This document shows positions 1,219-6,535 of a stretch of 17,549 bases of DNA, in pieces; the first letter of the stretch is position 1; each line of letters opens with the position of its first letter. A program made the position numbers and the translations under genes. This DNA is from Candidatus Nitrosopelagicus sp. (GTDB taxonomy: Archaea; Thermoproteota; Nitrososphaeria; Nitrososphaerales; Nitrosopumilaceae). The stretch is from positions 1 through 17,549 of the forward strand of contig JABHJJ010000183.1 in the NCBI GenBank assembly GCA_018691945.1, written 5' to 3'. Below the pieces are notes generated by a model. That model worked only from the letters and a program-made list of their open reading frames with translations, ran no database searches and was not told the DNA's origin.

Positions 1219-1293
1219 AGCCAATAGAGAGATTTGAACTCTCGACCTATTGATTACAAATCAATTGCTCTAACCAGGCTGAGCTACATTGGC
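1219..1293 (-). tRNA. tRNA-Thr, anticodon UGU
   Basis: The minus strand folds into a complete cloverleaf: acceptor stem GCCAATG/TATTGGC with one G-U pair, D stem GCTC/GAGC, anticodon stem ATTGA/TCAAT with loop TTTGTAA (anticodon TGT at loop positions 3-5), variable loop AGGTC, T stem GAGAG/CTCTC with loop TTCAAAT, and discriminator T at 1219. CCA is not encoded and no intron is present. It reads ACA codons. A T-rich tract follows on the minus strand (about 1207-1218) and could serve termination. Confidence 0.95.
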
Positions 1294-2684: not shown

Positions 2685-3236
2685 ATGCTTGATTTAGTTG
2701 CTAAGAAATTATTTCTAACTAAAGGAATAGGTGTTCATGAAGACAAGCTCACAAGCTTTGAATATGCTCTGCGTGATGCAGGCATCTCTGGAACAAACAT
2801 AGTTCTAATCTCAAGTATTTTTCCTCCAAAGGCAAAACTAATTCCTAGAAAGGAGGGATTGAAGAAGATTAAACCAGGCCAAATTCTATTTACAATTTAT
2901 TCTAGAAATCAAACAAACGAGCCACATAGATTGGTTTCGGCATCTGTTGGATTAGCACAGCCAAAAGATCGTACCAGATATGGATACCTATCTGAATATG
3001 ATGCATTTGGCCAAACTGAAAAACAAGCCGGTGATTATGCAGAAGATATTGCAGCACAAATGCTTGCGTCATCTCTTGGTATTCCATTTGATATTGACAA
3101 GAGTTGGGATGAGAAGAGACAACAGTGGAATATTTCTGGAAAAATTTACAAAACCCAAAATATCACAATGACTGCAAAAGGTGACAAGTCTGGAAAATGG
3201 ACCACCGTATTTTCTGCTGCATGTTTGCTTCTCTAG
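2685..3236 (+). CDS. pdaD: Pyruvoyl-dependent arginine decarboxylase
   Basis: It converts arginine to agmatine, the first step of archaeal polyamine synthesis; agmatine is also used to modify tRNA-Ile2. The proenzyme of 183 residues cuts itself before a serine that becomes the pyruvoyl cofactor. Seen: LISSIFPPKA at residues 41-50, matching the family cleavage region (Ser-Ser followed by I-x-P-P), which predicts a beta chain of about 43 residues and an alpha chain of about 140. The downstream SEYDAF contains Glu104, aligning with the catalytic Glu of the Methanocaldococcus enzyme. The N-terminal FLTKGIGVHEDKLTSFEYAL and C-terminal VFSAACLLL also fit. Start: ATG 2685, with a TATA box inside the previous stop codon. 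The stop shares a CTAG palindrome with the convergent gene. Confidence 0.93.
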   Translation: MLDLVAKKLFLTKGIGVHEDKLTSFEYALRDAGISGTNIVLISSIFPPKAKLIPRKEGLKKIKPGQILFTIYSRNQTNEPHRLVSASVGLAQPKDRTRYGYLSEYDAFGQTEKQAGDYAEDIAAQMLASSLGIPFDIDKSWDEKRQQWNISGKIYKTQNITMTAKGDKSGKWTTVFSAACLLL

Positions 3237-4450
3237 TGTTTTGGCTTGTATCCTTTTAGATAAAATATTGCAGCTCCGATACCTGCTACAATTATAATGC
3301 CTAATACTGCATATTGTGTTTCATCGCCATCTCCTTCTTCATTTTCAATTATCGGCACTTCTTCTGCTTCACTCTCAATCTTTTCTACAGAATAAAGTGT
3401 CATCTCACTTTGCATGTCCCATGGAGCAGTCTCTACTAATAATTCCTCTGCTGAAATGGTCTTGCTCTGTCCAAACAAAAACTTTAGATCAATCATTTCT
3501 CCTGCAGGTGAACTCAAAAACCACCCTTTTTTCATTATATTCTCAAAAGTTGTTACATCGGTAATTGCATGAGTTGATATTGCATTAACCTTCGTTGTCT
3601 CACTTGGAATTATGATTAGTTGTATTATTGAATTTAGAGGAACATTTCTGTTATCAAAATAATCTGTTCGTGAAATTTTATCTACTTCGAAACTTTCTAG
3701 TGTCCTTATCACTGTAATATTATTACTTTTTTCTTTAATCTCTTTTGTAATTTTAAACATGTATAGATTTGAATCCTCATTTGGAATCATTGTTACTGAA
3801 ATTATTGAATCATCATGTATGGATAATTTTTTTGCGATGTCATAAAATCCTCCTCCATCTCTAATCTCTTTTGGAATTAATATTCCTGCTATATCTGTAA
3901 ACAAAAAGTCCGTTGCTCTTTTGTCAGTTACATAAGTTGCTGATACAGCGCCCTTGCCTGATACAATCCCTGATGTCTCTAATAGTACATTTGCATTATC
4001 TGCTGTATGAATATACACAGAGTGAAATTCTGCATCTGTACGGAAAACTTGATTTAAATCATCAATTAGCAGACCTCCCATCTCTCTTGCTGACTCTTGA
4101 ACCATTCGGATCCCACCATCTCCTTTGAGTTTTTCATAATCAAAATTAATCATTATGCATTGTTGTTCTGATGTTACTCCAATCACACATTCTCCGGCAT
4201 TTGTAAAAACTACTGCTCTAATCTTTTCATTGGCGTTAATCTTTTCAATTAATTCTCCAGGGAATCTTATCTCCTCATTACTTGTGGTCTCAAATCCTAT
4301 TGATGTAATGATTGATCCTGAAATTTTTTGATCATAAATTATTGATGCACTCTCTTGAAACGTTGCCTTTTCAAATTGCTGTGCACTAGCAAAAGGCATG
4401 ATTAGTATTGATGAAAATAATATGCCAAGCAGTAATGTTGACTTTATCAT
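3233..4450 (-). CDS. Secreted, C-terminally membrane-anchored protein of unknown function
   Basis: About 405 residues, not assigned to a known family. The N-terminus is a classical signal peptide (basic MIKS, hydrophobic core, cleavage likely near ASAQQ). The long middle part is a non-repetitive beta-rich region with two Cys in AGECVIGVTSEQQC. An acidic linker (about residues 365-380, EEVPIIENEEGDGD) precedes a single C-terminal helix and a short basic tail (KGYKPKH). This is a type I surface protein with its body outside the cell. The frame opens at TTG 4456, but a TATA box centred 25 bp from the ATG at 4450 favours 4450. Its stop overlaps that of pdaD. A role in extracellular sensing or the cell envelope is only inferred from topology. 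Confidence 0.8.
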   Translation of the reverse strand: MIKSTLLLGILFSSILIMPFASAQQFEKATFQESASIIYDQKISGSIITSIGFETTSNEEIRFPGELIEKINANEKIRAVVFTNAGECVIGVTSEQQCIMINFDYEKLKGDGGIRMVQESAREMGGLLIDDLNQVFRTDAEFHSVYIHTADNANVLLETSGIVSGKGAVSATYVTDKRATDFLFTDIAGILIPKEIRDGGGFYDIAKKLSIHDDSIISVTMIPNEDSNLYMFKITKEIKEKSNNITVIRTLESFEVDKISRTDYFDNRNVPLNSIIQLIIIPSETTKVNAISTHAITDVTTFENIMKKGWFLSSPAGEMIDLKFLFGQSKTISAEELLVETAPWDMQSEMTLYSVEKIESEAEEVPIIENEEGDGDETQYAVLGIIIVAGIGAAIFYLKGYKPKH

Positions 4451-4470
4451 ATTCAATGAAACTTGTATTA

Positions 4471-4479
4471 TTTTATTTA
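4471..4479 (-). promoter_or_regulatory. TATA box of the surface protein gene
   Basis: The minus strand reads TAAATAAAA, centred 25 bp before the ATG at 4450. Confidence 0.45.
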
Positions 4480-4500
4480 GTTTACTGATTATGCTATAAC

Positions 4501-4507
4501 GTTTAAA
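4501..4507 (+). promoter_or_regulatory. TATA box of the candidate hairpin RNA
   Basis: AACGTTTAAAT, with the TATA part GTTTAAA at 4501-4507, is centred about 26 bp before 4530, so transcription would start just at the 5' base of the predicted RNA fold. A second TATA-like element (TAGTATATT, 4512-4520) would give a start near 4542. Confidence 0.35.
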
Positions 4508-4527
4508 TCACTAGTATATTCCTGCTT

Positions 4528-4600
4528 AAATGACATCGAATTCAAACCGTTGGGGAACACGCCGGCAGTCCGATGGCTCGGGCTGCCGGCCCCACATTTC
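4528..4600 (+). ncRNA. Candidate structured non-coding RNA with a GC-rich 13-bp hairpin
   Basis: In this AT-rich region, bases 4561-4590 (24 of 30 G or C) form an uninterrupted 13-bp stem with tetraloop TGGC (4574-4577). One pair, 4569/4582, is U-G if read on the plus strand but A-C on the minus strand, which favours the plus strand as the RNA. Outside it, TGGG (4551-4554) can pair with CCCA (4591-4594), and AAATG (4528-4532) with CATTT (4595-4599). The 3' side would then be fully paired, with 6-nt and 18-nt bulges on the 5' side. A TATA element lies 26 bp upstream. I do not recognise the family; it does not look like tRNA, SRP RNA, RNase P RNA or C/D box RNA. The ends are guesses from the fold. 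It could instead be a DNA-level palindrome or an unusual terminator for pepF. Confidence 0.45.
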
Positions 4601-4606
4601 ATTAAC

Positions 4607-6388
4607 CTATAATTTTGCTAGATCGTCCACTTGCTTTTTTATATAGTCAAATCCACTTTGCCAAAATTTTGCCTTGGATATGTCAAGTCCATGCTCTTTG
4701 AGAAGTTTTTCTGGTTTCTGTGATCCTCCTGCAGACAGAATATCTGTGTATGTGGAGACAAAACGGTCTCCCTCATTTTTGTAAGTTTGGAATAGTGAAA
4801 CTGCAAGTAAGTTTCCAAATGAATATGAATAGCAGTAAAATGGAGAGTGATAAAAATGTGGAATGCAACTCCATTCTATTCCAAAGTCATCTGATATGTC
4901 AATTGAATTCCCAAATTGTTCCTTTAGATTATTTCTGTAAATGTTAGAAATCTCATCTACTGTGATGGAGTTTGCAATTTGATTATGAGCCTCAATCTCA
5001 AATAGCGTGAAAAATGATTGTCTTCCAATTGTTGCATAAAAGTCATCAATCTTATCTGATAGCATTGTAGATTTCTCTGCATCTGAAATCTGACTTGAAA
5101 TATTGTCATATAGTAATAATTCTGAATATGTGGATGCAGTTTCTGCAAGAGGCAGAGGTGCATCCGATATTAAAATTGATTTCTCAGATGCCGCAACACT
5201 ATGTACTGCATGTCCAATCTCATGTGCTAATGTGAATACATCTCTTGATTTTCCTGTATAGTTGATTAAAACAAATGGTGTGATATATGGGAGTGGGGTA
5301 CTACAAAATGCACCATCTCTTTTTCCATGTCTTAGAGAATAGTCAATATGATTTTCATTAAAAACACGTGAAGCATATTCTGCAATCTTTGGACTAAATC
5401 TGTTAAGTGAATCTAAAACTAGTTTTGTTCCTTGATCAAATGTGTAATTTTTTTCTTGTCTACTATTCTTTGATGGTGCATACAAGTCATATCTTCTAAG
5501 TTTCTTTACTCCAACTCGTTTTGCCTTTTGTTGGAAATACTTTTGAAATACCGGTGCATTTTTCTTGCACACCTGTAACATCACATCAATCGTTTTATCA
5601 TCTATATCATTTGAGATGTTTTGAACTGATATTGGATTTGTAAATCCTCTCATATCAACTCCTTCATTTCTCCAGTTTAGTACAATATTTTGATAAATCT
5701 GACCAATTACTCCCTTGTTTTCCTGATACTTTGTCAAGAGTGATTTGTAAGATGCCTCTCTAATCCTTGAACTCTTATTTCTGACAAGTGTTGTAAGCTG
5801 CTCTCTTCCCATTGTTTTTTTCTTACCATTTACGTTTACTGTATATGTAAACGCGTTAGTTATTTTATCATAAATTTTTACTAATGCAGAAATTCCTGTG
5901 ACATCTAATGTATTGATTATCTTTTCTTCAGGCTCGGTCAGTGCATATCTTGCAACAAGTCTTTTGTATCTTAGATAGTCTGCTAATTCTCCTGCATTTT
6001 TGATTAGTCTTTCGGCATTTTTCTCATCTATCTGCTTTTTCCACCACAAATCAAAGAACAGCATTTTGTTTTCGATAGTTGAACCAAACTGGGAAATTCT
6101 AGTTAGTAATGCAGTTGCCTCATCTGACTGTGTATCTTCTGAAAATTTTAGTCCTGCATATCCTCCAATCTTGCTTGATCTTTCTGTGATATCTTCAATC
6201 TCGTGGAGTAGTTGTAAAAATCTCTTTGATGAAATATTTGGTTTTAACAGAGATTTGTTCTTTGCAAATTTTTCAGATTGTTTTTGTATTTCATTGATCT
6301 TTCTATCAAATGATTGTCTTGTAGGGTTCTTGACTAGATCATCTAGATCCCATCGCCCCTTTTCATATTTCTGCACGATTACTTTCAA
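4607..6388 (-). CDS. pepF: Oligoendopeptidase F-like zinc metallopeptidase (family M3)
   Basis: A cytoplasmic zinc peptidase that trims oligopeptides. 593 residues, the usual length for M3B/PepF. Seen: the all-helical N-terminal region, then the zinc site FTLAHEIGHAVHS (His389, Glu390, His393) and, about 23 residues later, LAETASTYSE (Glu416 as third ligand). YSYSFGNLLAVSLF near the C-terminus matches the conserved tail region of the family. The frame opens with TTG at 6388. The best TATA-like element on the minus strand (GATATAG, about 6401-6407) better fits a leaderless start at GTG 6376, so the start is uncertain by four codons. It is convergent with the hairpin RNA and divergent from tRNA-Val. 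No signal peptide is present. Confidence 0.93.
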   Translation of the reverse strand: MKVIVQKYEKGRWDLDDLVKNPTRQSFDRKINEIQKQSEKFAKNKSLLKPNISSKRFLQLLHEIEDITERSSKIGGYAGLKFSEDTQSDEATALLTRISQFGSTIENKMLFFDLWWKKQIDEKNAERLIKNAGELADYLRYKRLVARYALTEPEEKIINTLDVTGISALVKIYDKITNAFTYTVNVNGKKKTMGREQLTTLVRNKSSRIREASYKSLLTKYQENKGVIGQIYQNIVLNWRNEGVDMRGFTNPISVQNISNDIDDKTIDVMLQVCKKNAPVFQKYFQQKAKRVGVKKLRRYDLYAPSKNSRQEKNYTFDQGTKLVLDSLNRFSPKIAEYASRVFNENHIDYSLRHGKRDGAFCSTPLPYITPFVLINYTGKSRDVFTLAHEIGHAVHSVAASEKSILISDAPLPLAETASTYSELLLYDNISSQISDAEKSTMLSDKIDDFYATIGRQSFFTLFEIEAHNQIANSITVDEISNIYRNNLKEQFGNSIDISDDFGIEWSCIPHFYHSPFYCYSYSFGNLLAVSLFQTYKNEGDRFVSTYTDILSAGGSQKPEKLLKEHGLDISKAKFWQSGFDYIKKQVDDLAKL

Positions 6389-6457: not shown

Positions 6458-6532
6458 GGATCCGTCGTCTAGCCTGGTTTGGATGCTGCACTCACACTGC
6501 AGAGGTCGCGAGTTCAAGTCTCGCCGGATCCA
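6458..6532 (+). tRNA. tRNA-Val, anticodon CAC
   Basis: Complete cloverleaf: acceptor stem GGATCCG/CGGATCC, short D stem GTC/GAT, anticodon stem CTGCA/TGCAG with loop CTCACAC (anticodon CAC), variable loop AGGTC, T stem GCGAG/CTCGC with loop TTCAAGT, and discriminator A at 6532. CCA is not encoded and there is no intron. It decodes GUG. The 3' end is only 3 bp from the stop codon of the convergent TFB gene, so there is no room for a separate terminator. Confidence 0.95.
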
Positions 6533-6535
6533 CTC

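Follow-up and report, generated by a model that had tools for sequence, protein, structure and literature searches.

The window is a 17,549-nt stretch of DNA of Candidatus Nitrosopelagicus sp. (contig JABHJJ010000183.1), and its contig derives from a 64%-complete genome of genus g1. At 4532-4600 the plus strand is predicted to encode an independently transcribed RNA of about 70 nt. The features of the locus are as follows.

4502..4508, plus strand: TATA-like promoter box TTTAAAT, recognized by its spacing to ACATCG across 44 loci
4532..4600, plus strand: predicted RNA gene, matched by covariance models R1 and R2 over 4527-4606, with both ends deduced
4532..4539, plus strand: antisense block 1, GACATCGA, found in the duplex scan as complement of 23S UCGAUGUC; ACATCG is present in 44 of 44 aligned loci
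4542..4549, plus strand: antisense block 2, TCAAACCG, found in the duplex scan as complement of 23S CGGUUUGG
4552..4555, plus strand: antisense block 3, GGGG, found in the duplex scan as complement of 23S CCCC
4556..4559, plus strand: AACA, conserved in the alignments, with no partner in the predicted 23S duplex
4561..4590, plus strand: 3' hairpin of 13 pairs with loop UGGC (fold z -3.5; pair changes on both sides)
4607..6388, minus strand: pepF, peptidase family M3 of the oligopeptidase F type (Pfam Peptidase_M3, 1.5e-47), a convergent neighbour outside the RNA

The hairpin at 4561-4590, GCCGGCAGTCCGATGGCTCGGGCTGCCGGC, contains 24 G+C among its 30 bases and consists of 13 uninterrupted pairs closed by a UGGC loop. 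Its pair 4569-4582 is U-G, where the minus strand would have A-C. All of these properties, including the G-U/A-C asymmetry, had been given in the original prediction and were read back in the sequence. Folding of 4528-4600 yielded -31.3 kcal/mol (z -3.5), and none of 200 dinucleotide shuffles folded as well. In the free RNA of the window a lower GGG/CCC stem is also predicted, in which the GGGG of block 3 pairs with CCCC 3' of the hairpin instead of with 23S rRNA.

Covariance model R1 was built from 11 sequences. Alignment A3 comprised 44 of 51 source sequences, near-identical loci and L078 and L085 being left out, and was fitted to R1, which favours the R1 structure in the covariation test. 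In this alignment changes on both sides were found in 12 of 12 modelled hairpin pairs, and 96.9% of the cells pair. The covariation score of the whole structure, lower stem included, was 0.452 against 0.187 in shuffles (0/500 as high); slid partners gave no more than 0.097. Using RNAalifold on a separate MAFFT alignment of 11 sequences, both-side changes were seen in 5 of 16 pairs. A functional plus-strand RNA, as originally proposed, is supported by compensatory pair changes, conservation in two families and the TATA spacing described below; lack of covariation or conservation in relatives, named at the time as grounds for abandoning the proposal, is excluded, both having been found. The additional stems fared less well. 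Many relatives, like the window, form the TGGG/CCCA stem, yet of the three lower pairs one is lost in 6 and another in 9 of the 44 sequences, notably in genus g37 and the Nitrososphaeraceae-type family (f8). The AAATG/CATTT stem is not conserved and would lie partly upstream of the likely start.

What had been described as bulges of 6 and 18 nt contains the most conserved part of the gene. This part lies 5' of the hairpin and reads ACAUCG-n-(U/C)CAAACCG-nn-GGG(G), while the hairpin sequence drifts with compensation. The arm pattern fits all 44 loci; its spacers measure 1-4 and 2-3 nt and differ among loci in both length and letters. The 3' hairpin probably stabilizes or ends the transcript. 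Its loop is often UGCG in genera of the Nitrosopumilaceae-type family (f1) other than g1, with a varying stem beneath (L098, L101, L105, L107-L114), and this loop may be a contact site. In some copies of genus g38 (L082, L083, L115), about 12 extra nt, AAAAATTCCGTG, separate GGGGAACA (4552-4559 in the window) from the hairpin.

The TATA element of the original prediction, TTTAAAT at 4502-4508, was recovered at a fixed spacing in relatives: TTTAAA lies exactly 30 or 31 nt ahead of ACATCG in 40 of the 44 aligned loci, and the remaining four have spacings of 32, 33 and 15 (nearest copy only) or no copy. Given this position and the usual archaeal distance between TATA box and start, which was assumed here, transcription would begin at or beside the G of GACAUCG. 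The 5' end was therefore placed at 4532, and the antisense arm would probably form the 5' end of the RNA. The 3' end was placed at 4600, judged by where the hairpin ends and by the T-rich letters beyond it; most loci have such a T-rich stretch 3' of the hairpin, that of the window being short. A small protein gene was rejected, as neither a start codon nor a reading frame is conserved through the core of the 44 loci: ATG, GTG or TTG precedes ACATCG in 32 and is missing in 12, and the summed spacer lengths are spread over all three frames (19, 14 and 11 of 44).

Distribution was assessed by sequence and model searches. With a 111-base query at E <= 1e-6, 23 of 61 genomes matched, the window's own included; 21 belonged to genus g1 and the others to two further genera. 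In the family search (cut-off E <= 0.1), R1 matched 208 of 250 genomes, 124 of the 131 good ones (>= 90% complete, <= 5% contaminated) and 21 of 31 in genus g1, two matches being listed only for G092 and G262. On genomes of the class, R1 matched 113 of 200. Model R2 was built from the 44 loci of A3 with the hairpin as its sole structure, so that its matches in the A3 source genomes are by construction; it matched 227 of 350 genomes of the class (161 of 219 good ones) and, at E <= 0.01, 35 of 200 genomes of the phylum. Confident matches were confined to f1 and f8. Elsewhere in the class the R2 search gave only E 0.084 and 0.087, and the weak R2 hits in families other than these two (E 0.084 to 0.88) were regarded as noise. 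No core was found in the weak-match DNA of G034, G049, G048 (one of three) and G042 (one of four). Some genomes gave a second or third R2 match; the two with known places are weak (E 0.0025 and 0.0099). The exact core pattern occurred in at least 120 stretches of named genomes. Among the 80 matches listed, 78 are archaeal by title, including Nitrosopumilus, Nitrosarchaeum, Nitrosotalea, Cenarchaeum, Nitrososphaera and Nitrosocosmicus, and the two bacterial ones were taken as chance. By these searches most Nitrosopumilaceae-type and many Nitrososphaeraceae-type archaea are predicted to carry the RNA, usually in one copy per genome.

Neighbouring genes were compared across the same 44 loci. The pepF gene was found in 39 and lies on the strand opposite the RNA in every one of them. 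In 37 of the 44 loci (37 of 40 in f1) its distance to the RNA 3' end is at most 80 nt, and in L082 and L113 it is about 550 nt. No pepF turned up in L107 or the four f8 loci; G043, of f8, has a pepF far from its RNA. In f8 loci a PsbP-domain gene meets the RNA 3' end (L087, 2091-2705, minus strand; L088, 1433-2020, plus strand), and in L089 an HMG-CoA synthase gene is the neighbour. Upstream of the RNA in the window, the minus-strand gene at 3233-4456 encodes a protein with a signal-peptide-like N-terminus and no Pfam match; in many f1 loci a relative of this gene, with 24-93% identity, is found close to the RNA.

Absence of the RNA followed two patterns. Neither RNA nor pepF was found in the f1 genomes G083, G183 and G160, and because pepF is also absent there, the locus itself may be missing from these assemblies. 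In G026 and G010, both of genus g1, pepF is present (about 67% identity to that of the window) with no RNA beside it and no R2 match, and these two genomes appear to be natural cases of loss. Similarly, G034 has a pepF with no core beside it, and its only R2 match (0.04) is coreless. Because these three genomes keep pepF without the core, the RNA would not be indispensable and seems dispensable in some lineages.

The 5' part of the gene, overlooked in the original prediction, is antisense to 23S rRNA, and the hairpin is the lesser half of the gene. All duplex scans were carried out on the rRNA operon of one relative (G033, L117). The top-ranked site in the operon was CGACCCCGCGGUUUGGUACCUCGAUGUCGGC of the 23S rRNA, which we take to be the 3' strand of helix 89 plus the peptidyl-transferase loop (E. 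coli about 2483-2507). The blocks ACAUCGA, (U/C)CAAACCG and GGGG are predicted to pair with it collinearly: block 1 with what is presumably the peptidyl-transferase loop (E. coli about 2500-2507), block 2 with the presumed helix-89 3' strand (about 2488-2495) and block 3 with a CCCC that we place at about 2483-2486. A 23S UACC, by our assignment at about 2496-2499, and a G are left unpaired, facing the variable spacers of the RNA arm. The first base of block 2 forms a U-G pair in the window and a C-G pair in f8 loci, with the same 23S G as partner.

This site in helix 89 and the peptidyl-transferase centre (PTC) was the best partner in the operon for 22 of 22 distinct cores from the 44 loci, by 5 to 13 kcal/mol, with a mean duplex energy of -31.5 kcal/mol against -19.7 at the next site. 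In a column-shuffle null, run on five representative cores of the 22 with gaps placed by hand, 0 of 300 shuffles reached the observed mean (observed -31.3, best -29.1, median -22.1). A block-chain test on a single core gave a weaker result, the observed score being reached by 30 of 4000 dinucleotide shuffles. The first scan, with only 20 mononucleotide shuffles, gave -30.1 as the best shuffle against -33.2 observed. When sites were ranked by their longest uninterrupted complementary stretch, other places in the operon came ahead of the PTC site. The pattern CCCC-n-CGGTTTG-n-CGATGT was matched in 23 of 24 genomes and its backwards control in none. Each listed match was either 23S-type sequence or the antisense of the RNA core; the RNA-antisense matches in G313, G315, G316 and G321 were assigned by their letters only.

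Wherever the target was seen, in 23 genomes that include f8 members and one genome of family f2, its sequence was the same; it was not seen in the examined pieces of G045 and G057. A 23S query gave no match in 6 of 30 genomes, among them the window's own incomplete assembly, and the site is present in the genus-mate G025. It is kept in G026 and G034 despite the missing RNA. Four f2 genomes gave no R2 match, and G037 nonetheless carries the identical target. An invariant 23S site would explain the strict conservation of the arm; for the same reason, the target shows no compensatory changes. In a cofolding prediction for the window RNA and a short piece of 23S rRNA, which by itself is predicted to take a non-native fold, the duplex was favoured by 16.4 kcal/mol. 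In addition, GGGGAACA resembles 23S GGGAUAACA, the strand opposite the target in the catalytic centre, a likeness that is possibly mimicry or chance.

Known RNA classes were tested individually. At curated thresholds Rfam gave nothing at the locus, in agreement with the original view that it matches no known class, and nothing matching the RNA in the loci of eight relatives. The only Rfam matches in the window are two tRNAs elsewhere, tRNA-Thr(TGT) at 1219-1293 (minus strand) and tRNA-Val(CAC) at 6458-6533 (plus strand), and a tRNA identity was rejected on that ground. A permissive scan of 4440-4640 gave one CRISPR-repeat match, rejected at 15.5 bits against a threshold of 39. Archaeal H/ACA guide RNAs are hairpin RNAs of a size similar to the present RNA. 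Unlike them, it has no guide pocket on either side of an upper stem, all complementary blocks lying 5' of the hairpin and the hairpin 3' strand being paired, and ACA (the only ANA form counted) occurs within the final 22 nt of the matched region in just 9 of 44 loci; this identity was rejected. A box C/D sRNA was rejected as well: box C (RUGAUGA, up to one mismatch) was found in 1 of 44 loci, CUGA in 5 and both together in none.

Among described RNAs, archaeal box C/D sRNAs are likewise small and complementary to rRNA; some are proposed rRNA chaperones, and many of the sites they target are grouped near the peptidyl-transferase centre (PMC7994747). They carry two guides between boxes, whereas the present RNA has one 5' arm and a hairpin. 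Yeast snR190 is a box C/D snoRNA chaperone of the pre-60S particle that pairs with H73 and domain I (PMC8536666), and it is described as a placeholder on domain V (H73), not a methylation guide, regulated by Dbp7, a protein that crosslinks to helix 89 (PMC8536666, PMC8536713). The archaeal RNA shares with snR190 its small size and antisense pairing with large-subunit rRNA domain V, here predicted only, and differs from it in having the C/D box pair in 0 of 44 loci and in its predicted partner, helix 89 plus the peptidyl-transferase loop. Haloferax rancRNA_s194, also an archaeal non-coding RNA, binds the 50S subunit and lowers peptide bond formation in vitro (PMC6104027); the two are likened by description, ribosome binding of the present RNA being only predicted. 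The available part of a rancRNA review contains no use of '23S' or 'PTC' (PMC8938821), and the unknown 229-nt euryarchaeal RNA reported from a Red Sea transcriptome is distinct from the present one (PMC5069720). In the open-licence PMC literature five spellings of the core were absent, and among the papers listed no title or start of an abstract describes this RNA. Because each known class tested fails on a defining feature, the RNA family appears to be new.

The reading we prefer, with a probability of roughly 55%, is that this box-less antisense RNA serves as a placeholder for the catalytic centre of the ribosome during assembly of the large subunit. It would bind nascent 23S rRNA and prevent wrong or premature folding of the catalytic loop and of the helix-89 3' strand; its subsequent removal, for which a helicase is the probable agent, would make closure of the catalytic centre a late event. 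The gene, its promoter spacing, the hairpin covariation, the distribution and the three-block complementarity are supported by sequence comparison, and from them we infer binding in cells, its timing and its purpose. A duplex with the 3' strand of helix 89 can form only while that helix is open, a condition that suggests assembly. Mispairing of helix 89 with the P loop, involving C2498-U2500, can occur in E. coli, where the intermediates found in an rlmE mutant show differences at H89-93 (PMC11194073). Shielding of this mispairing site would be incomplete, since the bulged UACC partly overlaps it. The AACA, conserved yet unpaired in the predicted 23S duplex, counts against the placeholder reading, as do the single-core chain test (30/4000), the ranking by longest uninterrupted run and the genomes that keep the target but gave no RNA core. 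In a stronger form, to which we give slightly less than even odds, the RNA would be the first dedicated RNA chaperone of the PTC outside the C/D and H/ACA RNAs: a box-less, stand-alone RNA of two families of ammonia-oxidizing archaea, whose 5' end would splint helix 89 and the catalytic loop, keeping the active site open until a controlled step closes it.

An unlikely alternative is a ribosome-associated regulator: by pairing with the peptidyl-transferase loop in large subunits that already exist, the RNA would slow or halt translation, as under starvation or during dormancy. Helix 89 is double-stranded in mature ribosomes, and two of the three blocks pair with its 3' strand, so that the helix of a finished ribosome would need opening. 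In favour of the regulator are the same 23S complementarity, the loss of the RNA in some lineages, which suits a non-essential role, and the archaeal precedent of rancRNA_s194 (PMC6104027). We consider a guide RNA of a new type, bulging the 23S UACC between two duplexes for a modification enzyme, to be distinctly unlikely. The spacer between blocks 1 and 2 does always face UACC, but the box counts given above (C/D pair 0/44, ACA near the 3' end only 9/44) and the grouping of the antisense blocks 5' of the hairpin, not around a pocket, argue against it. That the RNA is real and acts mainly on an mRNA or a protein, its 23S complementarity being incidental, is improbable. Conserved letters of GGGGAACA that do not pair with 23S rRNA, and the moderate significance of the single-core chain test (30/4000), would be in keeping with another target; against it stand the alignment-wide null (0/300), the occurrence of the exact pattern in 24 genomes only in 23S rRNA and the RNA gene itself, and the position of the spacer changes at the duplex breaks. 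A pepF terminator or 3' structure only, or a chance GC-rich hairpin, is scarcely credible and the terminator was rejected: the 3' ends of the RNA and of pepF are indeed no more than 80 nt apart in 37 of 40 f1 loci, but promoter (at fixed spacing) and T-rich tail are on the strand opposite pepF (39/39), conservation is higher in the 5' arm than in the hairpin, pepF is not adjacent in four f8 loci and G026 and G010 carry it without the RNA, all of which contradicts the terminator explanation that the original prediction had allowed for.

Ammonia-oxidizing archaea are among the most abundant microbes, and in most searched genomes of their main family this RNA is predicted, yet it has no Rfam family. 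If the chaperone reading is true, its mechanism would be a new variant of rRNA-pairing chaperones that resembles the snoRNA chaperones of eukaryotes. A gene-encoded complement of the ribosome active site would offer a handle on how the archaeal catalytic centre is built or controlled, and it raises the question of whether rRNA chaperone RNAs exist beyond snoRNA-type particles.
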